From assembly GCA_016178585.1 (NCBI GenBank), contig JACOTA010000028.1, forward strand, positions 1 through 32,646: 32,646 bases of DNA. The letters are read 5' to 3'. Position numbers and translations under genes: made by a program. The DNA is from Nitrospirota bacterium (GTDB lineage: Bacteria; Nitrospirota; Nitrospiria; JACQBW01). The notes below the pieces were generated by a model, which worked only from the letters and a program-made list of their open reading frames with translations, ran no database searches and had not been told where the DNA came from. Within the stretch, counting starts at the first letter, position 1, and the number at the start of each line of letters is the position of its first letter. Shown piece by piece: positions 236 through 22,732 of this stretch.

Positions 236-1327
236 GTGAAGCGCGCATCTTCTTTATTACTTGTTTCGATCATATTTCATTTTTTTCTTTCCTGTTCGTC
301 CTCCTCTCCAAACCCGTCTTCAAATTTAAACCGTAAAAATTCAGTAAAACCTGTCTGGACCAATTATCAAATTAACGCCGGCGTTCACGCCATTGCCTTC
401 GAAGACCATTATATTTGGGTGGGAACTGAACAGGGGGTTCTCCTCTATGACATCCAGCAGGAGAAAATCGTCAAAAAGATTAACAACCAAAACGGATTGC
501 TCTCAAATGATGTAACCTCCATTGATATTGACCCGGAAGGAAACAAATGGATCGGTACCCATGGCGGAGGATTGGTCTTAATAGGCGGGGGCGTTAAAGG
601 GAGGATAAAAAAAATTTATAATGCGCCGACCTTAGCCGATCCTTTTGTTTATAAAACGGTCTTTGATGCGCAAGGGCGTTTGTGGGTAGCGACGTGGAAA
701 GGGGTTAGTTTATTTGACGGGAAAGTCTGGAAAAAGTTCACCAAAGAAGATGGTTTAATAGACAATTGGGTCTATTCCCTGGGAATTGATCAAACCGGAA
801 CCCTTTGGTTCGGAACCGAAGGCGGCGTTAACTCCTTCGACGGGAAAACCTGGCAGACGTTTACGCATAAAGAAGGTCTGGGAGCCGAATTAAAGGATAT
901 TCCCGAGTTTGAGAAAATTGTGAACGCGAGCCGCCATCATGCCTCAACCCCCGGTAAAGAAGCCGAAGGGTATAACCCCAATTATGTTCTCTCCCTGGCG
1001 ATAGACCATGAGGGAACAAAGTGGTTTGGAACCTGGGGCGCCGGTTTATCACGGTTTGACGGCAAAGTTTGGAAAAACTTCACGGCAAAAGACGGGCTTC
1101 CGGGAAATTTTGTGGCCGATATTTTCGTCGATTCAGATGACGGAATTTGGATCGGCACTGAAGGGGGAGTGGGATATTTCAATGGGAAAGAATGGAATAA
1201 ATATACCCGGAATGACGGTTTAGTTGATGACTCCGTTTTCACGATTACCCGGGATAAAAGAGGGTCTAAGTGGTTTGGAACCATGGATGGGCTGAGTAAA
1301 TTAGAGGGTTTTGTTCCTAATTTATAG
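236..1327 (+). CDS. Two-component-regulator-propeller lipoprotein (sensor-like, no kinase)
   Basis: This is a 363-residue protein starting at GTG 236, with AAAGGG five bases upstream. It has a signal peptide ending in a lipobox (F-L-S-C20), so it is probably a periplasm-facing or surface lipoprotein. The rest is a series of roughly 40-residue blades with the hallmark W(I/V/F)GT..GG(V/L)..F(D/N)GK.W..(F/Y)T..DGL. This matches the ligand-binding beta-propeller of hybrid two-component sensors (Reg_prop family). No transmembrane helix, Y_Y_Y domain, histidine kinase or GGDEF domain follows. It is therefore a stand-alone propeller that would bind an extracellular ligand or protein partner. It lies just upstream of the cytochrome cluster, separated from it by 164 bp that contain a sigma-54-like promoter. 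Family assignment is firm; ligand and partner are unknown. Confidence 0.8.
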   Translation: MKRASSLLLVSIIFHFFLSCSSSSPNPSSNLNRKNSVKPVWTNYQINAGVHAIAFEDHYIWVGTEQGVLLYDIQQEKIVKKINNQNGLLSNDVTSIDIDPEGNKWIGTHGGGLVLIGGGVKGRIKKIYNAPTLADPFVYKTVFDAQGRLWVATWKGVSLFDGKVWKKFTKEDGLIDNWVYSLGIDQTGTLWFGTEGGVNSFDGKTWQTFTHKEGLGAELKDIPEFEKIVNASRHHASTPGKEAEGYNPNYVLSLAIDHEGTKWFGTWGAGLSRFDGKVWKNFTAKDGLPGNFVADIFVDSDDGIWIGTEGGVGYFNGKEWNKYTRNDGLVDDSVFTITRDKRGSKWFGTMDGLSKLEGFVPNL

Positions 1328-1491: not shown

Positions 1492-2313
1492 ATGGATCGA
1501 TTCTCTATTCAAATAGTGCTAGGACTTTTTTTAATGGTTTTTGTTACTTCTCAGGCCGTTAAAGATGTAAAAGGGGGGACCATTATCAGATCCCGCCATG
1601 ATTTAAACGCACTCAACCAAAGGGGATATAATACGGTTACAGGTCCAATGACTGGCGGTTCTTTTAACGAATATGGTGAAACCTGTATTTATTGTCATAC
1701 GCCCCATAACAGCAATCCCGTTGCTCCGTTATGGAATCGCGATCTTCCCAATCCGTCGGGATATCAGATGTACTCCAGCCCGAATTTTGATTCTAAAGTG
1801 GCCGCTCCTGACGGGATCTCTCTGGCCTGTCTTTCTTGCCACGACGGAAGTGTCGCAGTCGACTCCGTTGTCAATAAACCCAAATATCATAGCTGGCTCG
1901 ATGCGATGGTCCACTACAAAATGAGTCCTGAAGGGGGTATTGGTTCAGATAGCTGCGGCAAATGCCATAACCGGTTGGAAGGGGCCTACGGAGGTGTGGG
2001 CGCGACGGGTATCGGTGCCGCGCATGACGCTACAATCCGGTATTTGACCCGCGATTTAAGGGATGATCATCCTATTTCAATGACCTTTCCTAATCGGGAT
2101 ATTGATCCAGGGTTCAATCAACCTACGCTGATTAAAAAGGATGGCGGAATGATGTTCCCAAACGGTGTTCAGACCTTTGAAGATAATAAGGTGCAGTGCG
2201 CGAGTTGCCACGATCCCCATAATCCCGATGAAAAAAACCTGGAAGGAAGGGACCCCTTCTTGAGAACGAGTAATAAGAATAGCGCGTTGTGTCTAACCTG
2301 CCATGTTAAATAG
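1492..2313 (+). CDS. Pentaheme c-type cytochrome, OmcE/OmcS-like (doubled CXXCH family)
   Basis: This is a 273-residue secreted protein. The signal peptide covers about residues 1-22 (cleavage after S-Q-A). Five CXXCH heme sites lie at residues 65-69, 113-117, 155-159, 236-240 and 267-271. Seven further His residues (36, 72, 133, 141, 178, 193, 243) could supply the distal ligands for bis-His hemes. The order of motifs is RHDLN, CIYCHTPH, PLWNR, CLSCHDG, DDHPIS, CASCHDPH and a C-terminal CLTCH three residues from the end. From memory, this is the layout of the small multiheme cytochromes that polymerise into extracellular filaments (OmcE, OmcS). The CGKCH site at 155 is extra compared with the tetraheme form. 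The gene follows a sigma-54-like promoter and heads the cluster. Polymerisation is inferred from family resemblance only. Confidence 0.85.
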   Translation: MDRFSIQIVLGLFLMVFVTSQAVKDVKGGTIIRSRHDLNALNQRGYNTVTGPMTGGSFNEYGETCIYCHTPHNSNPVAPLWNRDLPNPSGYQMYSSPNFDSKVAAPDGISLACLSCHDGSVAVDSVVNKPKYHSWLDAMVHYKMSPEGGIGSDSCGKCHNRLEGAYGGVGATGIGAAHDATIRYLTRDLRDDHPISMTFPNRDIDPGFNQPTLIKKDGGMMFPNGVQTFEDNKVQCASCHDPHNPDEKNLEGRDPFLRTSNKNSALCLTCHVK

Positions 2314-2437
2314 CAGGCTGTTGAAAAAGCCTCATTTGCTGCGTTCTCGTTGGTCGGCAATCCTCACGTACTGACCGTGTACGCTCCGGGTTGCCTCCCT
2401 CCTGCGGCCTGGCAACTGAAGCTTTTTGAACAGCCTG
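2314..2437. repeat. Terminal-inverted-repeat element, short copy (124 bp)
   Basis: The left end CAGGCTGTTGAAAAAGC and the right end GCTTTTTGAACAGCCTG are inverted repeats with one mismatch. The interior is also palindromic: GGCAA (2356-2360) with TTGCC (2391-2395), and CGTAC (2367-2371) with GTACG (2379-2383). Each terminus alone can fold as AGGCT...AGCCT. The element begins at the base after the cytochrome stop codon (TAG 2311-2313) and has no coding capacity. A 208-bp relative lies at 25920-26127. It resembles a non-autonomous MITE-like or REP-like element, and as RNA it could form a long stem that attenuates read-through. Confidence 0.85.
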
Positions 2438-2446
2438 AAATAGTAG

Positions 2447-2468
2447 GGGCAGGTCCCTGTGCCTGCCC
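2447..2468. repeat. Short hairpin repeat GGGCAGG/CCTGCCC
   Basis: GGGCAGG (2447-2453) and CCTGCCC (2462-2468) form a perfect 7-bp stem around the 8-base loop TCCCTGTG, in the leader of the NHL gene. There is no U-run after it, so it is not a standard terminator. It looks like a dispersed palindromic repeat; no second copy was found in this window. Confidence 0.6.
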
Positions 2469-2491
2469 TGTAAAATGTTAAAAGGATTGAA

Positions 2492-3538
2492 GTGTTGATT
2501 AAAAATTATTGCCAGATTGGATCAGTTATAACGATCCTCCTGTTTGTGGGGTGCGCGACAGCGCCTGTTCAAAAAACAGAAATTATTTGGCCGTTACCTC
2601 CCGACCCGCCACGGATCAAATTTGTTAAAACGATTGAATCGGCTAAAGAGGTGGAGAAGGAAAGTTTTGGAAAGTCGGTCATGCAATTCCTGGTCGGCAA
2701 AGATCCGACGGTCCATCTTCAAAAACCCTATGCGGTCCATGCAGACCGGAAGCAGAGAGTTTATGTGGCCGATTCAGCCTGGCGGAAAATTCTGGTTATG
2801 GATTACGCGAAGAAAGAGTTTATGTTCCTCGGGTTAGACGGGCCGGGGATTTTAAGCAGGCCGATGGGGGTCACCACCGATTTCACAGGAAATATTTATG
2901 TTTCCGATACGGTTGGAAAACGAGTCGTCGTTTATGATCCGAATGGAAAATACCTCCTGGCCATGGGTGGAAAAGAAATTTTTGAAGAACCGGTTGGCAT
3001 TGCGGTAAATGACAAATTACGGCGGGTTTATGTTGTCGATACCCGGAAACATAACGTCGACATCTTTGATTTTGAAGGAAGGTTCCTCTCCGATTTTGGC
3101 GGGAGAGGCGTAAACGATGGTCAGTTTAATTTTCCGACCAACCTGGCCGTCGATCCGGATGGAAAAGTTTACGTCATGGATACCTTTAATTTTAGAGTCC
3201 AGATTTTTGATTCCGACGGCCGGTTTTTATCTAAATTTGGGAGTGTGGGCACAGGATTAGGCCAGTTTTCAAAACCGAAAGGAATTGGGGTAGACAGTGA
3301 AGGCCATATTTACGTCGTCGATGCGGCATTTAATAATGTTCAAATCTTTGATCAGGAGGGCCGCCTTCTCCTCTTTTTTGGCGATCTCGGAGCACGAGAC
3401 GGCCAGATGTATCTGCCGGCGGGTCTCTGGATTGATGAGAATGATCAGATTTATGTAGCGGATCAATACAACAAACGAATTGATGTTTACCAATATTTAG
3501 GAGAGAGGTGGAAAACTCGGCAACAGACGCCTAAATAA
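2492..3538 (+). CDS. Six-bladed NHL-repeat lipoprotein, first copy
   Basis: This is a 348-residue protein starting at GTG 2492, with AAAGG about six bases upstream. The lipobox is F-V-G-C21, so it is a predicted lipoprotein. A Pro-rich linker (WPLPPDPPRIKFVKTI, residues 33-48) leads into six NHL repeats (about residues 75-340). Each has the pattern P.G(I/V)..D..G.(I/V)YV.D....R(V)QIFD..G.FL..FG, enough for one closed six-bladed propeller. NHL propellers bind proteins, polysaccharide or other surface ligands; no enzymatic residues are evident. It lies between the 5-heme and 4-heme cytochrome genes and is clearly paralogous to the protein at 7351-8412, including the Pro-rich linker. That placement suggests a periplasmic or surface assembly partner of the cytochromes. 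The role is inferred. Confidence 0.8.
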   Translation: MLIKNYCQIGSVITILLFVGCATAPVQKTEIIWPLPPDPPRIKFVKTIESAKEVEKESFGKSVMQFLVGKDPTVHLQKPYAVHADRKQRVYVADSAWRKILVMDYAKKEFMFLGLDGPGILSRPMGVTTDFTGNIYVSDTVGKRVVVYDPNGKYLLAMGGKEIFEEPVGIAVNDKLRRVYVVDTRKHNVDIFDFEGRFLSDFGGRGVNDGQFNFPTNLAVDPDGKVYVMDTFNFRVQIFDSDGRFLSKFGSVGTGLGQFSKPKGIGVDSEGHIYVVDAAFNNVQIFDQEGRLLLFFGDLGARDGQMYLPAGLWIDENDQIYVADQYNKRIDVYQYLGERWKTRQQTPK

Positions 3539-3578
3539 TCTCTGAATTTAGCTTATAAAATTACGGAAAGGATGAACC

Positions 3579-4616
3579 ATGATGAGCGACTTGAGGTTTT
3601 TCAAAAGTTTTTTTATTTTAATTTTTGTTTTGTTTTCTGTTAATGGAGTTGATGCTTCTGAAGATATTGCTCATACCAAACATAATTTGGCGGCAAATCC
3701 TGATATTCTGGCATCATCTAATGGCACTATTAATTTAAATGGCGATATCTGTGTCTTCTGCCATACCCCCCATGGTGGGCGAACCGATGTGGCGGGTGGA
3801 GGAGCTCCCTTATGGAACAGAAGACTTCCTGTAGCAGGGGCTTATACGCCTTATACGAGTCCAAATTTCGATGCCGCCGGGTCTAATCCGGGACAGCCAA
3901 AAGGGGTCTCTCTGGCGTGTCTTTCCTGCCATGATGGTACAATTGCTTTTGATTCCCTGATCAATGCCCCAGGATCCGGAGGATTTTTTACTTCGAATAA
4001 AACCGCAACCGGGCCAGGAGGGAGTATCGGATTAAACTTTACCCTTAATGGGGGGGTGGACCCGACCAATAAAACTTTTAAATCCGGCAATCGAACAGAT
4101 AGCACCATTGGAGGATTTGCCTTTTATGATTCGGCAGGTGTGAGCAATGGAAACGCGGGAGGAGCGGCTCCTTTTCCCAATCTAACCACCGATTTGTCGG
4201 ATGACCATCCGGTCGGCATGGTGATCCCGGCCACCGATCCCCAATTTAATGAAATCCGAACCAATTTAACCAACATTGCCGTTCAGGGGACGGATGGTCA
4301 TCTGGCGGGATCTAACAAAGTGTTTTGGATTACCCGTGATGCCGCAAGTTTGCAGACGGATAAACGGGACCGTTTAAGGGCTTATCCCTCCACTTTTCCC
4401 ACAAATCCTGATGATGCCTATATTGAATGCGCTTCGTGTCATAATCCGCATGAAGCCAGCCGGCCGGGGGGGCAACCCGCGTCAACGGCCCCTATTAATG
4501 TGACAACCGTCAACAATTCCCGTTTCTTAAGAGCGCCCACGCCTTCTCAACCAGGGATCGACATGAATGATCGAAATGCAAGCAGTGCCTTATGTCTAAG
4601 CTGTCATCAAAAATAG
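3579..4616 (+). CDS. Tetraheme c-type cytochrome, OmcE-like
   Basis: This is a 345-residue secreted protein with an AAGGA site ahead of ATG 3579. The signal peptide ends near D-A26. Four CXXCH sites lie at residues 58-62, 114-118, 284-288 and 339-343. Six other His residues (32, 35, 65, 210, 241, 291) cover four bis-His hemes. Conserved blocks are AHTKHNL, CVFCHTPHGG, PLWNR, CLSCHDGT, DDHPVG, CASCHNPH and a terminal CLSCHQK. The heme number and order match what I recall of OmcE, but the chain is longer. A Gly/Asn/Thr-rich insertion (about residues 130-205), lacking hemes, separates hemes 2 and 3 and may decorate a filament surface. The 3' end, coding the last heme motif, overlaps the start of the prolyl isomerase gene by 25 bp. 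Filament formation is inferred. Confidence 0.85.
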   Translation: MMSDLRFFKSFFILIFVLFSVNGVDASEDIAHTKHNLAANPDILASSNGTINLNGDICVFCHTPHGGRTDVAGGGAPLWNRRLPVAGAYTPYTSPNFDAAGSNPGQPKGVSLACLSCHDGTIAFDSLINAPGSGGFFTSNKTATGPGGSIGLNFTLNGGVDPTNKTFKSGNRTDSTIGGFAFYDSAGVSNGNAGGAAPFPNLTTDLSDDHPVGMVIPATDPQFNEIRTNLTNIAVQGTDGHLAGSNKVFWITRDAASLQTDKRDRLRAYPSTFPTNPDDAYIECASCHNPHEASRPGGQPASTAPINVTTVNNSRFLRAPTPSQPGIDMNDRNASSALCLSCHQK

Positions 4617-5467
4617 TTATTTATTTTTTTCTGGGTTTCTTTTTTTGGCAGGCGGGTCTTTCGTTTTCGCGGGGGGATGAGAATAAAGATGAAAAAAAGG
4701 GGAATTCCACCGAACAAAACAGGGAAAAGGTCATCGCGGAGGTCAACGGGGTTCCGATTTTAGAAGTGACTTTAAAGCAGGAGATGCGGAACTCCTTAAT
4801 TAACCTGGGGCATGGCGAACTTCCGCCTCAACGAATGGAAGAGATCAGGAGGGAGGTTTTGGACACCTTAATTGCCCGGGAGCTTGTCACGCAAAAGGCA
4901 AAAAAAGAGGGGGTCGATCCCAATGACCTGGTTAAAAAGGAAGTTTATGACAAGGCTCTGGTTCAGGAAGAGGAGATTAAAGCTTATTTCGAGAAGCATC
5001 AGGAAGAGTTTATGAAACCGGAAGGGGTCCGTCTCCGGCATCTTCTGGTGAGTGTCGACCCTTCAAGCTTTAACGAGGGGTGGAAGAGGGGATATGAGAA
5101 GGCGCTGGAACTTTCCGAGCGGGTAAAAAATGGGGAAGATTTTGAAAGTCTGGTTCAGAAATATTCCGACCCCGAGTCAAAATATTTTGGGGGAGATTTA
5201 AGAATTCAATATAAAGGGAAAATGGCGATGGCGGAATTTGACCAGGTGGCGTTTACCTTGAAAGAAAAAGAGGTGAGCGGTCCGATTCAAACCCTGTATG
5301 GATTTTCACTCATTCAGGTGGCGGAAAAGATACCGCCCGAACCTTTTCCATTTAGGGAAATCAATCAAGAGAAAATCAAGAAAAAGTTAGTTCAGGAAAA
5401 GGTAGATAAAAGAACAAGAGAATGGATAGGTGATTTAAAGAGTCCAGCCGTCATCAAAATTTATTAA
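4592..5467 (+). CDS. Parvulin-type peptidyl-prolyl cis-trans isomerase (PpiC/SurA/PrsA-like)
   Basis: This is a 291-residue secreted chaperone with an N-terminal hydrophobic segment at residues 8-25. A SurA_N-like helical part (about 47-125) carries AEVNGVPILEVTL and the helix DTLIARELVTQKAKKEGV. The PpiC rotamase domain spans about 145-248 and holds RLRHLLVS, FESLVQKYSDP, FGGDL, FDQVAFTLKEKEVSGPIQT and YGFSLIQV. It would catalyse proline isomerisation and aid folding of secreted or outer-membrane proteins in the periplasm. ATG 4592 is the only plausible start; it lies inside the upstream cytochrome gene and overlaps its last eight codons, so translation is probably coupled. The barrel gene follows after 45 bp, making the flanking cytochromes and barrel its likely clients. 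Family call is firm; clients are inferred. Confidence 0.9.
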   Translation: MSKLSSKIVIYFFLGFFFWQAGLSFSRGDENKDEKKGNSTEQNREKVIAEVNGVPILEVTLKQEMRNSLINLGHGELPPQRMEEIRREVLDTLIARELVTQKAKKEGVDPNDLVKKEVYDKALVQEEEIKAYFEKHQEEFMKPEGVRLRHLLVSVDPSSFNEGWKRGYEKALELSERVKNGEDFESLVQKYSDPESKYFGGDLRIQYKGKMAMAEFDQVAFTLKEKEVSGPIQTLYGFSLIQVAEKIPPEPFPFREINQEKIKKKLVQEKVDKRTREWIGDLKSPAVIKIY

Positions 5468-5512
5468 AATTAGAAAATAGTACGTTCTGAAATTTGAAGA
5501 TTCCAAGAGCCC

Positions 5513-7345
5513 ATGACGCAATCGTATGGCCGACAATTTAAAAAAATAATTCCTTGGAGGTTTCTTTTCAGAATTTTCCTGGTGATCGTCGTAATGAAGT
5601 TAATGGAAAGAGAAGCCGCCTTTGCGGCAATGAATGGGGCATTATCAGGTTCCATCGAAGGGGCCTATTTATATTCGGATATTGATAGTAATGGGACCAA
5701 AAGCTCAACTCGTGGAATTGAACAGAGGTACAATTTGCGGTATTCCCAAAATTTAATAGACTCCCGGCTCGGTTATTTCTCCGGCGCGGTCGGGTGGGCA
5801 GACGATCAAACCACACAATCAGGACCCAAAGAGGAATCGCGCCGGTATACCCTGAAAGATTATAATTTAAATCTGTCGCTTTTTCCGCGGTTTTCTCCCT
5901 TGGCCCTTTTTGCCCAGAAATCGGAGCGGGAAAACCAGTTTGACTTGACCACACACGACACGATCACGACCTATGGATTTGCCTGGCTTTTTACCCCTAT
6001 TTATCTGCCGCGCATAGCGGTTAATGGAACGCATACGACTTATACCAGTGATCGTTCCGGTCTTTTTCCGACCAGTGAAACCGATGTTTTATCGATCGAT
6101 TCAGGCGGGAGGTGGCGGAGTTTTAATGTGAATGCCCGCTATCTTTATAATCAGAGCAAAGACGAAAATGGAGAGACCAACTGGGGGCATGGAATTAATC
6201 TTAATCTTAACGGCGCGGTGACCCGGGCGTTAACGTTAGGGGCTTATGCCAATTACACCAATCGAGGGGGCACGGTACAGGGATTTAATTTTTATCAGGA
6301 AAACGCGCTGGGTTTAAATTTATTTTATTTGCCAAATCGGTTTTGGGATGGAAATCTCCGTTTTGACTTCATCGAATCGCCCGGCAGTTTGGATTTCAAA
6401 CGGTATCTGGTCAGCGGCGGGTTGAACCTTCACCCCACTTCAAAGCTGGATCTATTTAACAGCGCCCAGTATACAAGATTTGACACGGGAAACAGCCGGA
6501 CCGACTCAATTTTCGCGAATACAGGCCTCAATTACCGTCCTTTTTTTGGGTTGACGTTAACCGGCGGATTGGGAGCGGGAGCGACTAAACTTACGGGAGG
6601 CGGGGTGTCGTCGAAAAACTATTTTGGCCAGGCGAACTGGTCCGCCAACTATTTTAAAGTCCTTCCTCTCTTAAGGGTCAACGCCGGGTACGGAGGAAGC
6701 ATCAGTCAAAATCATAATGACACGGTGGGGGATTCGAGGGACCTTACGAATACCCTATCAGCCGGGATTGATAACACCCAAACCGAAATCATTCATGTCG
6801 GGGTAAATGGCACTTTAACGAAGATTCATCGGACCGTTCCTTCCCGGTCGGATGACCAGAACGAATTACGTCTGACGGCGCTGGCCGATAAACAGATCAG
6901 AAACATGATATTTTATAACGATTTCTTGATTTTGAATGGAAATTTAACCTACATAGATGTGTCAGGTTTTGGGGTCGATGGGAAAACCCTTTCGGAAGAA
7001 CTACATGGGAGTTACCAGTTTTTAACGGTGTTTACCCTTTTAGGAGACCTCTCGCATACCGAATACCCGTCGGGGCTTTATGGAAACAGCCTGACTGCGG
7101 CATCGGTTGACTTTTTAGGGAACATTAGACCCTGGATCAATGGCCTGTGGACCTTTAGCGTAAAAGAGTCGGTTAATGATTGGAAAAGCGCTCCGGCCCA
7201 AAAAACTTTTGAAGGGCAGACCCGGTTAAGTCATCAACTAGGGCGTCTGACGTTAAGTACCGATTATCAATATCTGCGAAATGATATCGGATCCATTAAC
7301 TCGGTCAGCCAGCAATTTTTAGTGAGGGCGATAAGGTCTTTTTAA
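5513..7345 (+). CDS. Outer-membrane beta-barrel protein (putative conduit or export barrel)
   Basis: This is a 610-residue protein. Residues 9-38 look like an N-terminal basic and hydrophobic export signal ending A-F-A, though the segment is interrupted by charged residues. The remainder is a succession of amphipathic strands with alternating aromatic and polar residues (for example LRYSQNLIDSRLGYFSGAV and GLNLFYLPNRFWDGNLRFDF). The chain ends ...VRAIRSF, a C-terminal Phe typical of BAM-inserted barrels. No heme motif, TonB box or POTRA domain is seen. The strand-rich length would suit a large barrel of about 20-26 strands. It sits between the prolyl isomerase and the second NHL gene, among three multiheme cytochrome genes. 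It could be the porin of an electron conduit or the export channel for the filament subunits; the sequence does not decide between these. It is not close to any named porin I recognise. Confidence 0.7.
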   Translation: MTQSYGRQFKKIIPWRFLFRIFLVIVVMKLMEREAAFAAMNGALSGSIEGAYLYSDIDSNGTKSSTRGIEQRYNLRYSQNLIDSRLGYFSGAVGWADDQTTQSGPKEESRRYTLKDYNLNLSLFPRFSPLALFAQKSERENQFDLTTHDTITTYGFAWLFTPIYLPRIAVNGTHTTYTSDRSGLFPTSETDVLSIDSGGRWRSFNVNARYLYNQSKDENGETNWGHGINLNLNGAVTRALTLGAYANYTNRGGTVQGFNFYQENALGLNLFYLPNRFWDGNLRFDFIESPGSLDFKRYLVSGGLNLHPTSKLDLFNSAQYTRFDTGNSRTDSIFANTGLNYRPFFGLTLTGGLGAGATKLTGGGVSSKNYFGQANWSANYFKVLPLLRVNAGYGGSISQNHNDTVGDSRDLTNTLSAGIDNTQTEIIHVGVNGTLTKIHRTVPSRSDDQNELRLTALADKQIRNMIFYNDFLILNGNLTYIDVSGFGVDGKTLSEELHGSYQFLTVFTLLGDLSHTEYPSGLYGNSLTAASVDFLGNIRPWINGLWTFSVKESVNDWKSAPAQKTFEGQTRLSHQLGRLTLSTDYQYLRNDIGSINSVSQQFLVRAIRSF

Positions 7346-7350
7346 CAGGA

Positions 7351-8412
7351 ATGAAGATGGTATTACTTTCAAGTCTGACTTTTTTAATTGTTTTAGGTCT
7401 GGTGGGATGCGCAACAGAAAAATCCGTCCAGAAGGGGGAGGAGATTAATTTAACCTGGCCGCTTCCTCCTGATCCGCCCAGAATAAAGTACGTGAAAACA
7501 ATTCAAGACGCCAGGGAAGTTTTACCTAAAAAGGGTTTTTTTAAAAAAGCGGTCGCTTTTATCTTCGGAGAAGAAGAAACCCCTCGCTTGATTCATCCTT
7601 ATGGAGTTTTTGCCAGTCCGTCGGGAAAAATTTATGTCTCAGACTCTGATCTGCAGGTGGTTCACCTGTTTGATTTTTCCGGAAAAGTATACCGGCAGGT
7701 TTTTAAAATACCCGGCGGCATATTGAGGAGTCCGATCGGTCTCACCCTGGACAACCAGGGGAATCTTTATGTGGCCGATTCCGAACTCGGCCGAATTTTT
7801 AAGTTTAATCCGGAGGGAAAATTTCTTAAGACGCTGGGCGGCACGATGAAGAGGCCGACTGGGATCGGTCTGGATCCGAAAAGGTCGGTACTCTACGCGG
7901 TCGATACCGCGGAACACCATATTTTGGCCCTTAATTTGTCCGGAGAAAAGCTTTTTGAAATCGGTAAAAGGGGGATTGGAGAGGGAGAGTTTAATTTTCC
8001 GACCCATATTGCCGTCCACCCTGTCAGCGGCGATATTTTTGTTTCAGACTCTATGAATTTCCGGATTCAACAATTTTCACCTGAAGGAAAATTTATCAGG
8101 CAAATCGGTTCAGTTGGTTCCCAGATTGGAAACTTTTCCAAACTTAAGGGGATTGCCGTCGATTCGAACGGGATTCTTTTCGCCGTGGATGGGTTATATG
8201 ATACGGTTCAGATGTTTAATAGTAAAGGGGAGTTCTTGATGAATTTTGGCAAAGCTGGAAACCGTGAGGGGGAGTTCTGGCTTCCTGCCGGGATTGCCGT
8301 GCAAGAAGGAGTGGAGGGAGAAAAGATTTATGTCGCGGACTCTTATAACAAAAGAGTTCAGGTCTTTCAACTCTTGGGACCGGTTCCTTCGTTTAACGGA
8401 GGTTCGAAATAA
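7351..8412 (+). CDS. Six-bladed NHL-repeat lipoprotein, second copy
   Basis: This is a 353-residue predicted lipoprotein (lipobox L-V-G-C20). The linker WPLPPDPPRIKYVKTI is nearly identical to that of the protein at 2492-3538. Six NHL repeats follow (about residues 75-345), with blades such as P.GI..D..G...V.D.....VQMFN.KG.FL. The blade order, the GEFNFPTHIAVHP blade and the C-terminal IYVADSYNKRVQVFQLLG correspond one-to-one with the first copy, so the two arose by duplication. The gene begins five bases after the barrel gene. Its stop shares one base with the ATG of the 11-heme cytochrome (TAATG at 8410-8414), which indicates translational coupling. A periplasmic or surface scaffold for cytochrome assembly is the most economical reading; no direct evidence of function exists in the sequence. 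Confidence 0.8.
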   Translation: MKMVLLSSLTFLIVLGLVGCATEKSVQKGEEINLTWPLPPDPPRIKYVKTIQDAREVLPKKGFFKKAVAFIFGEEETPRLIHPYGVFASPSGKIYVSDSDLQVVHLFDFSGKVYRQVFKIPGGILRSPIGLTLDNQGNLYVADSELGRIFKFNPEGKFLKTLGGTMKRPTGIGLDPKRSVLYAVDTAEHHILALNLSGEKLFEIGKRGIGEGEFNFPTHIAVHPVSGDIFVSDSMNFRIQQFSPEGKFIRQIGSVGSQIGNFSKLKGIAVDSNGILFAVDGLYDTVQMFNSKGEFLMNFGKAGNREGEFWLPAGIAVQEGVEGEKIYVADSYNKRVQVFQLLGPVPSFNGGSK

Positions 8413-11282
8413 TGGGCCGGAAAAGAGATCTCTTTTTAATCATCGTTATCCTTCTCATTGTTCCGGTGATGGGCCAGATCGCTCCTCCGCCGGGAGCTCC
8501 ACCGACCAAACATGAGGATATTACCAATACCCGTCACAATCTTTCGGCCAATCCTCCTGACGTCACCAAACATCCTGAGATTTTTCCTAAAGGGACGGCG
8601 GGAGCCGATCCAAGGCGTGTTTTTACGCCTCAAACCAATGAAATCTGTGTCTTCTGTCATACCCCGCATGGGGCGAACCTTGCCGCGGCAACTTCAATTC
8701 AAGCGCCGATTTGGAACCGGCAACTCTCCTCTGCCTCATACACGTTGTATGATCAGGTCTGGAGTAAGTCGTTCGAAGGGAAATTGAATCGAGGAGCCCC
8801 CACCGGTTATTCGAGACTTTGTCTTTCCTGTCATGACGGGACCGTCGCCCTGGGAGGCGTGCTCAATAAACCAGGTTCAGGCGGCTTTATGGATACACCG
8901 TATACCATGCAGTATAAACAGGGGGATGTCTATTCCACTGATTCTTCCCAAATTCCACCGATTCCTGATACGATGCCTCTTGGGAGCGGAGTAGACACCG
9001 GAGATACCCGTCGGTTAGGGACGAATTTGACCAATACCCATCCTATTTCGTTTTTATTTGATTCTGCCCTGGCGGCAACCGATACGGAACTGGTTGATCC
9101 GGGGGCGCCGCTGCAAAAAGGTCCGGGGATCACCGTAACGGATCACACTCCGATCTCTCCGGCGGCGAGATATCCAGGGGATAACATTAACGTTTACGAT
9201 TCGGTTCAATGTACCTCGTGCCATAACCCGCATCAGGTCGACTATCCCAAGTTTTTGCGGGCCAGTATTTTTCAGAATGATGCCAATCATCCCGGGGAGC
9301 AGATTATCTGCCTCTATTGCCATGCGAAACCGGGTTGGGTCGGGAGCACTCATCAAGTGAGCCAGGCCCTTCACAACCCCTACCCCGATTCGAGCAACCC
9401 TTATGACTTTGACGGCACCCATACCATCGAACAGTTTGCCTGCCGGAACTGCCACGATCCGCATACCGTTCGGGGAGCCAAAAGAATTCACCGGGAAGGA
9501 GTCGATGCGACCGGACAGGATGCGACGGAAAAAACCTGTTTTCTTTGTCATTCGCCAAATACCAAACCGGCTGTTTCGGGCCAAGTCAATAGCTACAATA
9601 GTTATCCCTTAAGCACGCTGGTAGCCGGAGATCCGACCAGCACAGGCAATCCTCGTTTTCAGACTTCCACGGTGGCACCCGATATTAACAGCCAGTTTTC
9701 GAAGGATATTAATCCAACGAGTAACATCAACTGTTATACTTCCTGGAACCCTCAGGCGAATTTAATCGGCGCCGGAAATTTTCCAGAATGCGGAAGCGCC
9801 ATGAATCTAACCCTTGGACATGGGGGAAAGCATGAGCCTGAATTTGTGGCAAGACCCCAGGAAGGGGTGGAATTAGGGAGTCCGGCGCCGCCGGCAAACA
9901 ACGAATTTACGCCGGGGTCTCTGGGTCCGGACAAAATTCCCCATGTCACATGTACCGATTGCCATAATCCCCATCAGGTGGAACCCGGAAACCGGCTCAA
10001 AGGGATGAAGGGGATCGACCTCAATGGTCTTGTGGTAGGACATGGCGTTCCGGGAAATGACCGGGAGCCTTATGTTTATGAGGTCTGTTTCCGGTGCCAT
10101 GGAAACAGCTACACCAATATTTTTAATGGAGACCGTTTTCCCGATGATACGTTCATGCGGTCTGACCCAAGGGATTTCAGGCCCGCAAACGCTGATTTCA
10201 GTTTAAGAGGGTTCAGCAACAAACGAAAAGAATTTAATCCCAACACCCCGGATACGGCTCCGGACCATTCCCAACAGTTTGTGAATGCCTCTTTTCATCC
10301 CGTTGGCGCGGCAGGAAGAAACGGGACATCTCAAATCTGTAAACAGCTCACAGAAGCCTTTCATTTAAATTGTGCCAATCCGGTCACTGCGTTAAAAAAT
10401 GTGACGATTCAATGCACCGATTGCCATAACAGCGAAAAAACCAGTCTTGTTAAGGGACCCGTGACCGAGTCAAATTTAAGAGCAACGGATACCCTGTCCA
10501 ACTTTTTAGCCATCAAGCCGACATTAAGTCCATATGAACCGGTTGGCCCCCATGGTTCGACCTTCATTCGGATATTGCGCAACCGGTACAATACCGATAT
10601 TCAAAATCCAACCCGATGTTTTGAAGGAAGCCCGCCGAATGGAAACGGACCCAGTGGTGGAATTGGCTGTACCACCAGCGACGGGAACGGCGCTGTCAAT
10701 GCGGATTTGGCGACCCGGTCGTATTTTGACAACTTTTTGCTTTGTTTCCAATGCCATGACCGGCGGGCGTTTGACCCCTCCGAACCGGGAGCCAATCACA
10801 CGGACTCTTCCTGGACTAATTTTTTTGGGGATGTCTTCCAGGGGGGAGATACGCATTGGAACGGAAATCTTCACATGTATCACCTCCAATGGACCGGCGC
10901 CATGTGCCATGAGTGTCACTATAATGTCCATAGTAACGTAGAAGCGCAAAATACCCAATATGGAGATGGCCGGGGCCATATCGCGGATGTCGATGTCGCC
11001 CTTTGTAACGGAGTTGCTTCAGGAACGACCTATCCCTGTTTACCTCCCGATGGAGAGGATGGCCTCGTTGACGGAATAGTTGACACTCATTTAATTAATT
11101 TCGGTCCTCAAGCAGAGGGAACCGTGGCTTCTAAACCCCGCTGGGCCTATGATGCGGTTAACAAACAATTCCAATGTTTTTTACGATGTCACAATGAAAT
11201 TATGAATACCTGCCACTACGGACGAAACACAGCCGGAGGAGGCGGGCAGGCCTGGTGCGCGGGCGGGCCAAAAGCTGGATAG
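8412..11282 (+). CDS. Large multiheme c-type cytochrome (11 CXXCH plus one CX3CH)
   Basis: This is a 956-residue secreted protein with a signal peptide at about residues 1-21 and no lipobox. Canonical CXXCH sites lie at residues 79, 137, 267, 300, 344, 376, 514, 559, 668, 778 and 832 (first Cys of each). A CX3CH (C-F-L-R-C-H, 922-927) lies near the C terminus and may be a twelfth, non-canonical heme site. The first part repeats the architecture of the small cytochromes (TRHNL, CVFCHTPHG, CLSCHDGT, THPISF, CTSCHNPH), so this looks like an enlarged doubled-CXXCH family member. Long heme-poor stretches (381-513, 564-667, 673-777) separate groups of hemes. It is probably periplasmic or outer-surface, passing electrons between the periplasm and the smaller cytochromes. 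The exact position in the chain is inferred from context. Confidence 0.85.
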   Translation: MGRKRDLFLIIVILLIVPVMGQIAPPPGAPPTKHEDITNTRHNLSANPPDVTKHPEIFPKGTAGADPRRVFTPQTNEICVFCHTPHGANLAAATSIQAPIWNRQLSSASYTLYDQVWSKSFEGKLNRGAPTGYSRLCLSCHDGTVALGGVLNKPGSGGFMDTPYTMQYKQGDVYSTDSSQIPPIPDTMPLGSGVDTGDTRRLGTNLTNTHPISFLFDSALAATDTELVDPGAPLQKGPGITVTDHTPISPAARYPGDNINVYDSVQCTSCHNPHQVDYPKFLRASIFQNDANHPGEQIICLYCHAKPGWVGSTHQVSQALHNPYPDSSNPYDFDGTHTIEQFACRNCHDPHTVRGAKRIHREGVDATGQDATEKTCFLCHSPNTKPAVSGQVNSYNSYPLSTLVAGDPTSTGNPRFQTSTVAPDINSQFSKDINPTSNINCYTSWNPQANLIGAGNFPECGSAMNLTLGHGGKHEPEFVARPQEGVELGSPAPPANNEFTPGSLGPDKIPHVTCTDCHNPHQVEPGNRLKGMKGIDLNGLVVGHGVPGNDREPYVYEVCFRCHGNSYTNIFNGDRFPDDTFMRSDPRDFRPANADFSLRGFSNKRKEFNPNTPDTAPDHSQQFVNASFHPVGAAGRNGTSQICKQLTEAFHLNCANPVTALKNVTIQCTDCHNSEKTSLVKGPVTESNLRATDTLSNFLAIKPTLSPYEPVGPHGSTFIRILRNRYNTDIQNPTRCFEGSPPNGNGPSGGIGCTTSDGNGAVNADLATRSYFDNFLLCFQCHDRRAFDPSEPGANHTDSSWTNFFGDVFQGGDTHWNGNLHMYHLQWTGAMCHECHYNVHSNVEAQNTQYGDGRGHIADVDVALCNGVASGTTYPCLPPDGEDGLVDGIVDTHLINFGPQAEGTVASKPRWAYDAVNKQFQCFLRCHNEIMNTCHYGRNTAGGGGQAWCAGGPKAG

Positions 11283-11293
11283 AACCAAAAAAT

Positions 11294-14200
11294 ATGAAAA
11301 AAATCCAAAAACAAAATCGTTCAGTAAGTCAGAATTTGAATAAAATATTTATCTATGGAGTCGCCTGGATTTTGTTGACCGGGCTCATAAATCCGGATGA
11401 GGTTGCCGCGGCTCTTCAGGCTGTCAGTCTAAATCCTTCCAGCGTGGGAAAGGGCGCCGTTGGTAAAAATATCGCGATCTACGGATCGGGGTTTCAGTGT
11501 GGAGTCAAAGTGACTTTCTCGGATCCCTCTGTAACCTCTCCGAATGATCCCGCACGGAGTCCGTTTCAAAATTTATGTCCTTCCGGGGTTATTCCGTCCA
11601 ATGTTCAATTTGTGTCGACGAGTTCAACGACTTTTACCAGCTCTAACGTATTTATCTATGTGAACGTTCAGGCTGGATCTACGACACCTTCGCAGGTGGT
11701 TCTGACTTTTACCAATCCCCTGCCTCCCAATGGAGACGGAAGCAGCGCGACAAAAACGCTTATCATTAATCCCTCTCCCGTGATGACTTTACCTTTAGTG
11801 ACTAATCCATTAACCGTGACGCAAGGGATGACGTTTGATTTAACAATCAATGGATCGGGGATTCAAAACGGAGCCAATCTTTCATTTTCTGTCCCCGGTC
11901 TGACGGTCAATGCTTTTACGGTCAATGGACCTGGAACAGAGGCAATCGCGAACATCATTGTCTCTCAAAATGTAATGCCGTCTCGAGTGGGCGTGACGCT
12001 GACGAATCCGGATGGCGGAGTCTCTACGGTCGCGTCCGGCTTTTCAATTCAACCTTTTTTTGGATCAAAAACCCCCGCCATCACCGTCTATGAGGATCCC
12101 CGGGCCGGCATCGGAAACAGAGTTCCTTATAACTTGTTCTGGAACGGGATATGGTCACAAGAGGGCAACCTGGTTCAAAACTCTCAAAGTTATTATATGC
12201 CCCAGGCGCTGGTTCTTAAATCGCATCCTTTTCAATTACAACAAATGGCCGCGCACCTGATTTATCCCTATATAGAATTTCAAGTCCTGGACCAGGGGAC
12301 GTGGAGCCATCCGTTGCTCATTACCGATTTTTCCAGTTCAATTTCGAGTAAAAATTTTGATGTGGCCTTTGAATCACAATCGGGGAACGGACTCATCGTC
12401 TATGGAACGTATCTTGGGGTTTATGGTCGTCGATTTTTTCAGAGCGTTGCTGTCACGCCGTGTGACCCTTCGGTCAATGGAAATTCTTCCCCCCCCTGCT
12501 GGGGAAACCCGATTACCCTTTTGACTGCCATCAATCCGACGGATTCGAATAATTCCACATTTCTTGCCAGAGCAAAATTGCTGTCCAATCCGGATAGCAC
12601 CAAAAATGAGATTCTCCTTGCTTATCAGGATGATAAGGGAAACCTTTATCTGCGGTCTTGGAACGGTAGCGCGAATGGAAATACGGGCGCCTTTTCTCCC
12701 GAATATCAGGTATCGACAGCAACCCGCGCCGATTCAACCCCGTTTGATCTTGCCTATAGCCAGATCGGCAAGCAGGGGATGCTCGCCTGGTTAGAAGTCA
12801 ATAATGGAACACCCAAATCGTGCCTCTGGAGTGGAACGACCTCGACCTGTGTTTTGACAGTTCCGAATCCGGCTCCAACAGGAAGTACTGCCACGACGAA
12901 TTTATTCTCCATCAAGTTGGTTTCCGATCCTGCTTCCAATAAGATCGCACTGGCCACATTAGAGAATGGTTCTACCGGTATCTTGAAGGTTCAAATATGG
13001 GATGGAACAACCTGGCCGCCTCCTAATTCTTATCCCGGTAATTTAATGGGGGTAATATTGTTGAGTAATCGCTTAAATGCTCTTTTCCCCGGCTTTGATC
13101 AGACCAATTTTGATTTAATCTGGAAAACAGCGCCGGCAAACAGGCTGTTTGCCGTTTATGCCGATTTCTATGATGGTGTGACCGGTTTTGGAGGCCTTCG
13201 TTATCAGTCCTGGGTGCCGGCGTCAGGGTGGGATTCGACCGACACCTTCATCACCGCCGTTCCTGCCGATGCTTCAGGAACTAATTATCCTCTATTTGGT
13301 TCCCTTCAATTTGATTCTGATCCAAGAACGGGGGATATTTTGGGGGCAATGAAAACAACGGACAGCCCCTATAATAATCATTTTTCAGATCAACTTTTTA
13401 CTATTCGCTGGGATGGAAACACTTCTTCCTGGACAGAGTTTACAAACCAGACGGCGGGCGCATTTTTTTCTCTGGTTACTCCTGTGGGTATCAATTATTT
13501 TAAAAGTTTTCCTACGATTTCCGCCACGACTTCCGCATTCACTTTCACGCAGGGGAGCGCTGTCAACTTATCCGTTTCGGGGACATTCATCCAAAACGGC
13601 GCGGTCGTTACATTCCCTGGTTTTACCGGCTCCACGACCGTTGCGCATTTGGGTGGAGTGGACACCGTAACCGCGACAGGATCCATAAGTTTAAACGCCA
13701 TTCCGGGCGTTTACGATTTGACGATCACCAATTCCGACAGGTCCAATGTCATTGGCAAAGGAATGGTCACGATCAATGCCAGTCTTTCGAATTCTCCGAC
13801 GATTTATTCCGTGATTCCAAACAGCAGGGGGCAGGGGGCGGCCAATCAGACTTTAGTTCTATCCGGATATCGATTCCCGGCCAGTTTTGCGGTCTCATTT
13901 TCCGGAAATAGTTCCGATATCAATGTGACGAGTCAAACCATGCTCTCTCCGGATCAGGTGTCCATTCAAGTTGACGTCTCCCCGAACGCGGTTGTGGGAA
14001 CCAGAGGAGTCGTTATTACCGATTTAGTTTCAGGGGGGCAGAGTTATATTTCTCCCGGTCTTTTTACGGTTAATTATGGCCCCACGATTTTGAGCGTGAC
14101 ACCGGGAGGGCTTATCCAGGGGTCGAAAGAGGTTCCCATTCTGCTATCTGGAAATGATTTTAAACCCGGAGCCGCCATTATTCTGACCGATGGGTCAAAC

Positions 14201-17200
14201 ACCCTTGGTTCGCAATCATCCGGAACTATTTCTTCTTCGCTTTACCAGAACAAGATGACCGGGAATCGTTTTTACATTTCAGCGGAAACTTCACCCGCGG
14301 TTGTTTTAAGCCGAATTGAAATAGGAGTTTCTCTGGTCGATTCGACCCAGGGTAAAAAAAGCGGCCAGGTTGCGATCTACACAGATAACGGAGGGGTACC
14401 CGGCACCTTGTTAGCTTCCAGAGAAATCCTCGAATTAACCCCATCGCCCCTGCCCGATGGCAGTCCCCCGAATTTTTTCGATTTTAATTTAAGCGCGCCG
14501 GTTATTTTACCCGCTCCTGCCAGTTATTGGGTATTGTTTAATGTCAACGGAGTGCAGACTCTTATCGTGAGTGAACAAAATGTGGCAAATTGTACGATTG
14601 ATGGATTTTCTCTAATTCCCGCGACGCCCTGCGCGGGAATTTCCAAAGACCAGACTTATGGGTCGTGGCCGGCGACAGGAGGTCTTCTAACAACATGGAG
14701 ACAGCGTCCAGGGATCCGGTACGGAATTTACCTTTCCTATTACCCGGTGGTTGGGAGTGCCCAGACAGGAACAAATAGTTCCGGAATTTATCAGGATGAG
14801 GCGACAGGGAGCGATAGTCTCACCGTAGGTGTGAATACTCAAATTCGTTATCTTTATGCCTATGTTAAAACGGTTGACCCTCTTTTACCGTCAGCCACTA
14901 TGGCCATTTATGACAATTCCGGAGCAGGCGGAACACCGGGAAATTCGAAGATAGGCGCCCTCAACATCTCCAATACCAGTCTGATTCCTAACAGCTTTAA
15001 TCGATTTCAGGTTGGAAATTTTGGGGTAGCCCTTTCCGCTGGAACCTACTGGATCATGGCAAATGCCAAGGGTGCGGGAACGACCTTTGCTTATGATTCC
15101 GGGGGAGGGGTTGTGGCCAACAGCGTTCAGTCGCCCCTGACCTATACATCAGCATGGCCGGCTATGTTTCTTCCGGCGACGACTTTAATTCCGCAAACTC
15201 GCTATTCTTTTTTTGGTGTGACCAATCTAAGACCATTAGGGCAATCCTCCTGTTTTGCGCCGGCTCCCTGTAATACCGATGGTCCTGACTCCAATCAATT
15301 CACCGGAACACAATTCATAACGACCGCGATCTCTCATATGATCGGAATTTCCTTCTTTGTCAACACGGTCGATTCAGGTAGTCCGTTTGGGCAGGCGGCC
15401 ATCTATGACGACAATAATGGAACGCCGGGAAACCGGGTTTTAACAACATCCTCTCAGACGCTTCTCCCGGGTTCTTTTAACACGATTTCGATCCCGCCAA
15501 CCCAGCTTCCAGCCGGAAAATATTGGATCCTTGTCAATGTCAGCGGGCCTCTAACGACGTTAACCTATGACGAAGGAACGACAGAAACAAGCGCCAAACG
15601 ATATCCAGCGCCATTTTCCAATCCATGGCCGGCAACCGGCGGTACTGGATGGACAACCTTTCCTGGAAGAAGATACGCGTTCCATGTGGTTCCTGATATA
15701 TCCGTGAGCAGCAGTAGTTTTTTAACAAACAATAGTCTTGGAGCAAATATCTCAATTGATCCTACTGCCGGGCTTGGATTAAGAGAAATCTGTGTCTTAA
15801 ATCCTGACGGGGGGAAAGGATGTTTCACTGTTGTTGATTTTGTCAAATTCGGGACCATAACCAATCCCGCGTTGACGGTATACGGCACAACGCTTTCTCC
15901 TTTTTCTTTCTATCGAAAATGGAATGGATATTCGCCCTGGGCTACTGAAAATTCGACATCCGCAACTCCCGCCAGTCCCGTATTATGGGAAGTGATCCGG
16001 CCTAGTCCAAAATCAGGAACCCCTGAAAAAATTTCAGGGTCGATCAGTAATGTTTCTTTGACTCTGCAAGTCTGGAACGGGACTTCCTGGGGATCTTCTC
16101 CTCCCAATGTGACCCCTTCGGCAGCTTTTTCACGTTCCTTTGACATCGCATACGAAAGTTTGTCTGGAAAAGGCCTGGCGGTGTATGGCATGTCAGGAAA
16201 TTCAGCGCCACAATATCAAATCTGGAATGGTCTAACCTGGACGTCAGGAACGGTTCCGGGAAGTCCGACGGGAACTCCTTTGTGGGTACGTCTTGAACCC
16301 AATCCTAAAAGTAACGAAATTGTCCTGGTTTACCTGACCGGAAATGTTAATCCGGATAGCTCTGTTACAAATGGTGTGATACATGCGTTGATCTGGAACG
16401 GAACCTCTTTCGGTAATGAGCAGGTCGTCATCCTTCCGGCCTCCAATATCAATCTCTGTTCAACCTGTACTCCCCCAGTTATAGGACAGTCTTTTGATAT
16501 TGCTTATGAAAATCGCTCCGGACGAGCGTTCTTGGCGTGGGGATCTGTCGGTAATCCAACCCCATCCTACATGATATGGAATGGGGTTCAATGGTCGGCG
16601 CAGGCAACGGCTAACCAGGCCGCCGCCGATTCCCTGACGGGGTTGATTTATTTTAAATTGTCGGGGGATTCTAATTCTAACCAGATCGCAATGGGAACCG
16701 GAACCCTCGATGGCCAATATTACATTCAGATATGGAATGGCGCAAGTTGGGGGTCTCCTGTTTCCAGGATGGATACGGCATCTCCTTCCTTTAGTTTAAC
16801 AGGTGAATGGAGTGCCAGTTCAACCGTTCCGCCCGGTTCGGTGGTAACCGAAAAAGTCTCCCAGGTGGTTTCTGATTTTGGAGAATTGACTTTCTCAGGG
16901 ACAGAAATCAATATCATCGGGCAGAAGAATAAAGGTCTTGGAATCGCGGACATTTACTTGGATAACCAGATTAAGGGGAGTATTGATTTCTATTCTTTAA
17001 GCCCGGTTCGGAGAAGAATTCTTTTTTCCTTAAGCAATTTGACGAATTCAACCCATCAATTAAGAATAGAACCCAGCGGGTCAAAGAATAGTCCATCGTT
17101 TCCCGGGGCCGCGATTACCGATTCATTCAGCACTTCAAATAGAGTGACAGGTTCCCTTTTCAAGGTTAAAAACAATACGACTATTAAAGCTTTGTCGGTT

Positions 17201-20200
17201 TTTTTAAAAACCTGTGATCCTGTTTCAACCCGCCGAAATTTTCAAATCGCGCTTTATTCGGATAATGGCGGCGTTCCCGGAAATTTGTTGGGACCCATGG
17301 CGCCTGTGACAGGAACCTGTTTCCCGGGATCGACGGATAATACGTGGATTAATCAAATCACTGTTCCCGGCATTCTATTGACAAAAGGAAACAGTTACTG
17401 GATCATGGTCAACACCAACGGGAATGGAAATGCTTTGACCTATACCGATAGTTCGGTTTCCGGCACTCAGGCCAAGTCGGTGCAGATGAACCTTTCTTAT
17501 GGGACATGGCCCTCCTCTTTTGCCGCGGCCGCGCCATGGACGCAAACCCCTTCCAGATTTTATGGACTTTATGGCGCGGAACAATTCGGGCCGATTACCA
17601 TAGGAATGGCTCCCCCCGTCCCGATCGATGCCTTTGAGGTTAAAAGTCAGATCGATTCTCCTGCCGTTGGGAGTATTGATCTTCTTTATCAATCCGATCA
17701 AAAGGATAACTTTTTTAATGTGGGAAGAACGTTTGATCTTGCCTGGGAAAAAGACTCGGGCCAGTTATTAACTGTTTTTGGTTCTCCCAGGTCGGTCAAC
17801 GTCTGTAATTATTTTAGCGCCTCTTCGGCGGCGACTAAATTTTATTACGGAACCCGTTTTCGGAAATGGAATTCAACCGACGGGTGGTTGGTGGATCAGC
17901 AGGTTCCCCTGGTGGGGAGTGATCTGGTTCCCCGGTGGATCCAGTTATCTTCCGATTCCTCCTCAAATGACCTTTTTCTTGGCGTGATCGGACATCCCAT
18001 AGACCAATTTGTTCCGTCGAGCGCGAATGCCACGGAATGTGTGGTTGCTTTTTCTCCCCTCAGTACCGTTCAAAACCCTGTGAGCGACCTGAGCATACTC
18101 CACAATCACCAGTACGGGTGGCATCATGAAGCCTGGACCGATAAGGAAGTTCTTAGCACCGCCTCTTCAGGTTCGCTTCAATCGACGATTGGTTTTCAAA
18201 CATATACCTCATTCGGAGAATCTTTAATGACGGCTTTTGATCCGGACGCCACGCCTCCTTCTCCCATTTCAACCTTAACCTATACGGGGGTTTCAAGCTC
18301 TTCTGTGTCTCTGCAATGGCTGGCTTCAGGGGATGATGGGGACCTGGGCCGTGCGGCAACTTATACCGTCGCTTATTCCACCAGCCCGATCAATACGGAG
18401 TTGAACTACGCGGCCATTCCTCTGGCGCAAAAAATAACCATTTCTGCGACTCCGTTTGCGGTCGGAACTTCGCTGACCTTTACGGAGACTTTTACCGTCA
18501 CCAATTTAAACCCTTCGACAACCTATTATTTTGCGGTTAAAGCAACAGACAGAGCCGGAAATATTTCTTCTCTTTCACCCGCGAATCCTTCCGTTTTTAT
18601 TGCAACCTCCGCTTCGGGGACCGTGGGAACAGGGATAACCGCACCCGGACCGATATCCGATCTGACGGTAGTTTCCGGTTCGCTGACGAATAATAATGTT
18701 CAACTCACCTGGACAGCTCCTGGAAACACAGGTTCAATCGGTACAGCGGCGGCCTACGATCTTCGGTGGTCCGGCGCCCCGATTACCAATGACAGTTCAT
18801 TTAATACGGCAACCCCTGTTCTTGCGACAGATGGCACCGGACGGAATGGCCTTTCCGTTCCTCATGCGGCAGGGACACGTGAATTTTTTGATTTTGTGGG
18901 ACTCCCTCAAGGAACTCTGACTTATTTTGCCATTAAAGCGTGTGGAACGCAGGCCATGGACATCATCACGTTTCGGTGCGCGGGAAACCCGGCAAATATT
19001 TCTCCGATTAATTCAAACAGCCCTGTATTGGTCAATAATGGCGGCGTGGTTAATTTAACACCGCCCGCCGCTATTTCAGATATGGTCGTCTCAAACACTA
19101 CCTCTAATGCGCTGACTCTTCATTGGACCGCGCCCGGGAACAACGGACAAATCGGCGCCGCGATGCGGTATGATCTAAGAATTTCAGCCAACCCGATTAC
19201 CTCGGTCAACTTTGATACCGCGTTTCAGGTGTTAAATCTCTTATCCCCGGCATCTGCCGGAAGTGTTCAGTCGTTTACGGTTGGCAATCTTCTTTCAAAC
19301 AATACCACAGGTCAGATCTACTATTTCGCGATAAAGGCCGTTAATTCGTCCGGAATCGTTTCGGCCATTTCAAATATTGTCTCCGGCACGACCCTGCCTC
19401 TGACTGACACCTCGCCTCCTGCCGCAATTTCTGATCTTTTCGTCGTTACCAGCGGGATTAACTCAACCTCGGTGACCCTCTCCTGGACGGCGACCGGTGA
19501 CAATGGAACAGCAGGAACAGCCTATCAATATGACATCCGGTATTCTGAACTTCCAATTGTTGAAGATGGAGCCGCCTTTGTTCAAGATCGGCAGATTGAA
19601 TTTAAAAATGCCGGTCAGGTTACCCAGCCACCCCTGCCGGGTCCTTCCGGGCATCATGAACTGTTTACCCTTGCGGGTTTAAACTCAAATACGATTTACT
19701 ATTTTGCCGTCAAGGCCGTTGATAAGGCTAGCAACAGGTCTTTCTTATCAACCTGTGTCAACTGCCCGGGACATACGGCCTTACGATCAGGGTACAATTT
19801 AGTCAGCGTTCCTTACCGGTTAAATGGAACGAATGATCCCGCGTCTGTTTTTGGAAATGATGTGTCAAAACCGGTTACGGTTTATCAATGGAATAATGGC
19901 TTTTATTCTATTCCTGCCATGGTATCCGGAGGGAACGGTTATTTTCTTTATTCTCCCGGTAACAATAGCATTCTGAAGGCCTCGGACACGCTGGGAAATT
20001 CTTTAGGGACTCCTGAAAACTCTCCTAATGTGATGATTCCTTTGCAAACAGGATGGAACATGATCGGGAATCCTTATCTTCATCCTATCTTCTTAAAGGA
20101 TACCTGTATCAAGAAGGGAACATCGGCCTCTGTTCCTTTTATGGATGCTGTGAGCGGCGGGTGGGTCGACGCGTCAATTTATTCCTTCGACGGAACTCAA

Positions 20201-22439: not shown

Positions 22440-22484
22440 TGAACCCAGGAACAGCGATAGACATGCTAACCGCTTAATTTACTT

Positions 22485-22563: not shown

Positions 22564-22615
22564 ACCTTCTATCGCCGTTCCGGGGGAATCTACCCAAGAA
22601 CAGAGTTAGAAAGCT

Positions 22616-22691: not shown

Positions 22692-22732
22692 ATGATTAAT
22701 AAGTGGGTGCGAAGTCTATCGCTGGTCTTGGG

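Follow-up and report, generated by a model that had tools for sequence, protein, structure and literature searches.

The question raised by positions 1492-11282 of contig JACOTA010000028.1, from the assembly GCA_016178585.1 of a Nitrospirota bacterium, is whether the cytochrome genes located there encode an extracellular nanowire and, if so, what might stand at the end of such a wire. The window, i.e. the whole stretch of DNA that was analysed, is 32,646 nt long and belongs to a genome of 2.45 Mb that is 96 % complete, in which the locus lies on contig 28. A first-pass annotation had proposed a filament locus of the OmcE/OmcS type, containing two small secreted cytochromes (here CytA and CytB), two NHL-repeat lipoproteins (NHL1 and NHL2), a prolyl isomerase, an outer-membrane barrel and an 11-heme cytochrome (CytC); the eight genes, all on the forward strand, were found at the coordinates that it gave. 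The explanation favoured here, with a probability of roughly 70 %, is that the locus builds an OmcE-type extracellular nanowire conduit, with CytA and CytB as subunits, a set of assembly partners, and CytC as an end-piece.

CytA and CytB as OmcE relatives

When all chains of the PDB were searched with phmmer, CytA and CytB matched the OmcE structure 7tfs with expect (E) values of 5e-20 and 7.5e-13, respectively, and their sole other relative was 9yuq (E 1e-18 and 6e-11). A template-free AlphaFold2 model of CytA, built from 69 sequences (mean predicted local distance difference test score, pLDDT, 87; predicted template-modelling score 0.81), had one significant match among PDB structures in Foldseek, and this was again the OmcE nanowire 7tfs (E 3.3e-9, probability 1.00; template-modelling score 0.51 on CytA and 0.67 on OmcE, root-mean-square deviation 5.7 Å over 257 columns). 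OmcS (6ef8, 6nef) was unmatched both in phmmer and in Foldseek with the CytA model, and membership of the OmcS type was rejected; of the double label given initially, only the OmcE half is retained.

The heme ligands point the same way. Counts of CxxCH bear out five hemes for CytA and four for CytB, with the motif order described in the first-pass annotation, and the additional histidines, which it had noted as sufficient for bis-His hemes, include the OmcE ligand set with its N-terminal histidine. H36, H72, H193 and H243 of CytA correspond to the four distal histidines of OmcE and of CytB; in an alignment of 69 OmcE-like proteins from many phyla, H36, H193 and H243 are invariant (69/69) and H72 is kept in 61. 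According to one review, a histidine of the neighbouring subunit serves as a ligand of heme 2 in OmcE (PMC12203936), and we suspect, by analogy with other wires, that the N-terminal histidine is the one donated between OmcE subunits. Additionally, 74 of 76 OmcE-like proteins that stand alone have exactly two residues behind the last CxxCH, a pattern that hints at a constrained place, e.g. an interface, for the C-terminus. Membership of the OmcE type has good support in sequence, in the set of ligands and, for CytA, in the predicted fold. Four hemes, as in the OmcE type, are found in CytB and in the N-terminal head of CytC; because it has five, CytA is a variant relative rather than a plain OmcE.

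CytA and CytB might instead be OmcE-fold monomers, or form short surface complexes (a terminal reductase, an oxidase or a shuttle), and build no long wires. In the literature surveyed, filaments are experimentally documented for only one close family member (OmcE, 7tfs), and CytA, the best conserved protein of the gene cassette (64-80 % identity between class-mates and the window), differs in this respect from the fast-evolving outer-surface cytochromes of Geobacter (PMC12977616). Nevertheless, the retention of the complete OmcE distal histidine set, the match of the CytA fold to a filament structure, the fixed C-terminus at the last heme, and folding and propeller partner genes that resemble those of the Geobacter osc operon make such monomers or short complexes unlikely.

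The fifth heme of CytA is present in every complete orthologue within the class; in the sample examined, 41 of 44 pentaheme proteins carry the additional CxxCH after heme 2 and ahead of the DHP motif. Seven changes are required to place the pentaheme label on the tree, and since the CytA clade (26 rows) stands apart from a second pentaheme clade, in Pseudomonadota and nearer the CytB lineage, CytA and CytB are separate lineages rather than recent duplicates. Their joint occurrence throughout the class agrees better with two roles than with a recent duplication. A tentative sub-case of the nanowire explanation is that CytA and CytB form two wires, or else a wire and a junction piece leading to CytC. 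The joint retention of separate lineages across the class argues for it, as does the contrast between a duplicated and variable CytB (38-73 % identity between class-mates and the window) and a single, conserved CytA, although a mixed wire remains compatible with the same data. A weaker reading is that the fifth heme would be a side branch that opens an otherwise insulated wire to its surroundings, as in OmcZ.

CytC and its OmcE-like head

The N-terminal 309 residues of CytC matched 7tfs (E 2.4e-15) in two stretches that span the module, and 9yuq is also homologous. The head contains, in order, H-N-L, CVFCHTPH, CLSCHDG, HP, CTSCHxPH and CxxCH, a repetition of the OmcE-like motif order that the first-pass annotation had missed. 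All four distal histidines are invariant in 36/36 aligned homologues, and the 36 heads fall on one side of a branch with a Shimodaira-Hasegawa-like approximate likelihood-ratio support of 94, in a quick tree with weak deep resolution. Judged from its sequence, CytC is not a mere neighbour of wire genes but bears the OmcE module itself.

Behind the head follow seven CxxCH motifs and then a C-terminal CxxxCH, which recurs in 46 of 50 CytC homologues with 11 CxxCH (one of the four exceptions is cut by a contig end). The tail also holds eight or nine further well-conserved histidines that are candidate ligands. The 11 CxxCH reported at first are therefore present, but the conserved CxxxCH makes CytC probably a dodecaheme rather than an 11-heme protein. 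Carriers with exactly 11 CxxCH span 12 phyla or candidate phyla, namely Nitrospirota, Pseudomonadota, Myxococcota, Gemmatimonadota, Planctomycetota, Chlorobiota, Ignavibacteriota, Bacteroidota, Calditrichota, Poribacteria, Schekmaniibacteriota and KSB1. A literature search, whose scope did not extend to Baquero 2023, Wang 2022 and Shen 2025, found no description of an OmcE-headed 12-heme protein, and its novelty is provisional.

That the head keeps the ligands of a subunit, that free subunits nearly always stop after their last heme, and that CytC has eight more hemes at this very place together suggest the idea of an end-piece. CytC may be a widespread terminus of OmcE wires, a possibility that we would put somewhat short of even, which could join the wire at just one of its ends, since the 8-heme tail is fused to the other, and whose tail couples to the envelope or to a target. 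As to polarity, such a terminus may be compatible with either end of the wire, i.e. an anchor or a cap.

Gene order, partners and distribution

Among 20 stretches from 19 class-mates, the recurrent order is CytA, NHL1, CytB (one to three copies), PpiC, barrel, NHL2 and CytC. CytC is found in every one of the 16 loci where the contig extends far enough to include it, and FGE-like genes come after it wherever the sequence continues. Given OmcE matches with E values of 1e-13 to 1e-20 and the same gene order in every class-mate locus that is not first cut short by its contig, the pattern is not one of chance. In the window, every neighbour from NHL1 through the FGE genes overlaps or is <50 nt apart, making one operon likely; between the end of CytA and NHL1 there are 178 nt (Table 1). 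PpiC and the barrel show the lowest identities of the cassette.

Table 1. Features of the locus, with positions in the window
Feature	Position	Strand	Evidence or remark
Reg_prop beta-propeller lipoprotein-like gene, upstream neighbour	236..1327	+	PF07494, E 4e-25
CytA, secreted pentaheme OmcE-family cytochrome, 273 aa	1492..2313	+	five CxxCH
CytA His36, N-terminal RHDL motif	1597..1599	+	invariant, 69/69 aligned OmcE-like proteins
CytA extra (third) heme site CGKCH, absent from OmcE	1954..1968	+	same place in most pentaheme relatives
NHL1, NHL-repeat beta-propeller lipoprotein	2492..3538	+	NHL repeats, E 2e-28
CytB, secreted tetraheme OmcE-family cytochrome, 345 aa	3579..4616	+	four CxxCH; 1-3 tandem copies in relatives
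PpiC/SurA-like peptidyl-prolyl isomerase	4592..5467	+	domain match, E 2e-17
Predicted outer-membrane beta-barrel	5513..7345	+	make-up, invariant C-terminal R-x-F
NHL2, NHL-repeat beta-propeller lipoprotein	7351..8412	+	NHL repeats, E 8e-24
CytC, 956 aa, OmcE-like head and 8-heme tail	8412..11282	+	11 CxxCH and 1 CxxxCH
CytC OmcE-like head: H42, four CxxCH, four OmcE distal His	8535..9336	+	7tfs, E 2.4e-15
CytC C-terminal CFLRCH, probable twelfth heme site	11175..11192	+	CxxxCH in 46/50 homologues
fn3-containing surface-type protein, 3030 aa	11255..20347	+	overlaps cytC end; outside conserved core
Two FGE/SUMF1-like proteins	20839-21669, 21648-22439	+	1-3 copies after cytC in class-mates

The partners named at the outset largely held up: both lipoproteins have NHL repeats and, judged by eye, lipoprotein-type signal peptides, and the prolyl isomerase has a PpiC/SurA-like domain. 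The gene for the barrel is present as well, its product being a barrel by prediction and without a family match, as the label rests on the make-up of the protein and its C-terminal motif. Alternatively, the locus might encode a porin-cytochrome conduit like MtrCAB/PCC, in which the barrel would surround the tail of CytC, as the pairing of a predicted barrel with a 12-heme cytochrome in one operon would allow. However, PF11854 (MtrB_PioB) was unmatched in the barrel protein and anywhere in the genome, and the CytC tail had no PDB match below E 0.05 (best, E 0.058); this arrangement is quite improbable, and membership of the MtrCAB type itself was rejected on the absence of PF11854.

On a wider scale, a scan with the single CytA sequence gave no matches, and an alignment-based CytA profile run against 84,980 species genomes recovered at least 570 confirmed relatives. 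Rates of partner genes were taken from the best 80 loci, picked by CytA similarity, and are valid for that sample alone. NHL genes accompany 43 of the 55 loci with a stand-alone OmcE-like gene, CytC 16/55 and PpiC 16/55; for the 23 loci with >7 kb on both sides, the figures are 20/23 for NHL and 9/23 for CytC. Within the phylum, CytA was found at E <1e-40 in 37/296 sampled genomes and was absent from two families (f2 and f12). The cassette is conserved across many Nitrospirota families, and its carriers probably include the cultured, Mn(II)-oxidising Ca. Manganitrophus.

Several other features accompany the cassette. The Reg_prop gene has the same orientation in some class-mates and is inverted and further upstream in others. 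Upstream of CytA in many class-mates (L035, L039, L044, L047 and L049-L052) there is a divergent pair of genes for 3-heme proteins (~123-147 and 223-246 aa). A propeller gene frequently goes with this pair, which is absent from the window. Very large open reading frames (ORFs) of 1519-3030 aa occur at differing places by family (window 11255-20347, L045 746-5305, L046 8371-15999); that of the window has fn3 repeats, and in one genome (L045, L046) two large ORFs lie between NHL2 and CytC. A 166-aa protein, also encoded on the forward strand, is listed between the fn3 protein and the FGE-like pair. This FGE/SUMF1-domain pair (20839-22439) closes the operon and weakly resembles the GldK/PorK and EgtB models, below the cut-off. 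Elsewhere in the window, imperfect repeats, both inverted and direct, cluster at 22441-22776 (cores TCATTGCGA/TCGCAATGA) and likely represent a small mobile or repetitive extragenic palindromic (REP)-like element; a pair of 33-nt inverted repeats, 85 % complementary and 142 nt apart, lies at 25920-26127 between dxs and an FtsJ-like gene; and 28384-30741 encodes a secretin with TPR at its N-terminus and a cohesin-like domain at its C-terminus, followed by a pilin-like gene (30741-31238).

A proposed conduit and known systems

In the proposed conduit, CytB and CytA would be secreted OmcE-fold subunits that polymerize head to tail, with one heme per subunit ligated by a histidine of the neighbour, an arrangement described for OmcE. 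Folding of the subunits in the periplasm would fall to the PpiC isomerase, their export or retention at the outer membrane to the barrel, and help with assembly or surface attachment to the NHL propeller lipoproteins. The CytC head might then dock onto the wire through the same subunit interface, and its 8-heme tail extend the heme chain, as an anchor, to the electron carriers of the cell or, as a cap, to an acceptor or donor. Electrons might flow in either direction, being taken up from Mn(II) or Fe(II) or exported to minerals. Several points weigh against this explanation. CytC is not obligatory, as outside the class it occurs at only 9/23 well-covered OmcE-like loci; the AlphaFold model of CytC was unusable (pLDDT 44); searches of Pfam, NCBIfam and the PDB, including a profile search of Pfam and the PDB, gave no confident match for the 5513-7345 protein; and what cytochrome filaments do physiologically is itself disputed (PMC11077965).

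A 2025 review (PMC12307469) calls the anchoring of nanowires, and the entry and exit of their electrons, speculative or open. Since it combines a wire-subunit head with a place in wire gene clusters and a range of 12 phyla or candidate phyla, the CytC-type 12-heme protein is a concrete candidate for the missing end-piece. The cassette also suggests a wire-type extracellular electron route for several Nitrospirota families that branch deeply, the Mn(II) oxidiser Manganitrophus probably among them; the text of a comparative paper on Manganitrophaceae does not mention OmcE, OmcS or nanowires.

The partner set that the first-pass annotation ascribed to Geobacter agrees with published loci, both for the osc operon (PMC13194489) and for a pair of NHL proteins (PMC12016550). 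In Geoalkalibacter ferrihydriticus (Ga0056053_02426-02431), an OmcE homologue likewise stands with two NHL proteins (PMC12016550); that locus differs in having MtoA-like cytochromes, and an OmcE-headed 12-heme protein is undescribed there. For the osc (omcS-companion) operon of G. sulfurreducens, a folding factor (OscH), secretion factors (OscE-G) and a morphology factor (OscD) have been proposed (PMC13194489). By annotation, the same kinds of roles recur in the Nitrospirota locus, with a prolyl isomerase, beta-propeller proteins and several related cytochromes, and the conserved predicted barrel may be a counterpart of the channel-like proteins of osc; the PpiC and NHL genes stand in a conserved neighbourhood. 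The cytochromes are OmcE-type rather than OmcS-type as in osc, and the likeness is one of annotation. OscH is reportedly a prolyl isomerase and OscD propeller-like, as Shen et al. are said to have found in 2025. The second PDB relative, 9yuq, is a 'putative multiheme cytochrome c' of 16 identical chains (218 aa) that is homologous and has the ligand set of CytB and OmcE, but it is tetraheme only and no associated paper was found. The closest counterpart with experimentally established filaments (PMC9473688; reviewed in PMC12307469 and PMC12954529) is the OmcE nanowire of Geobacter sulfurreducens (GSU0618, 7tfs), with which the Nitrospirota proteins share homology, four CxxCH sites with the same four distal histidines, the position of the C-terminus and, for CytA, the predicted fold, and from which they differ in the fifth heme of CytA, the longer inserts of CytB, the presence of two subunits per locus and the Nitrospirota host.

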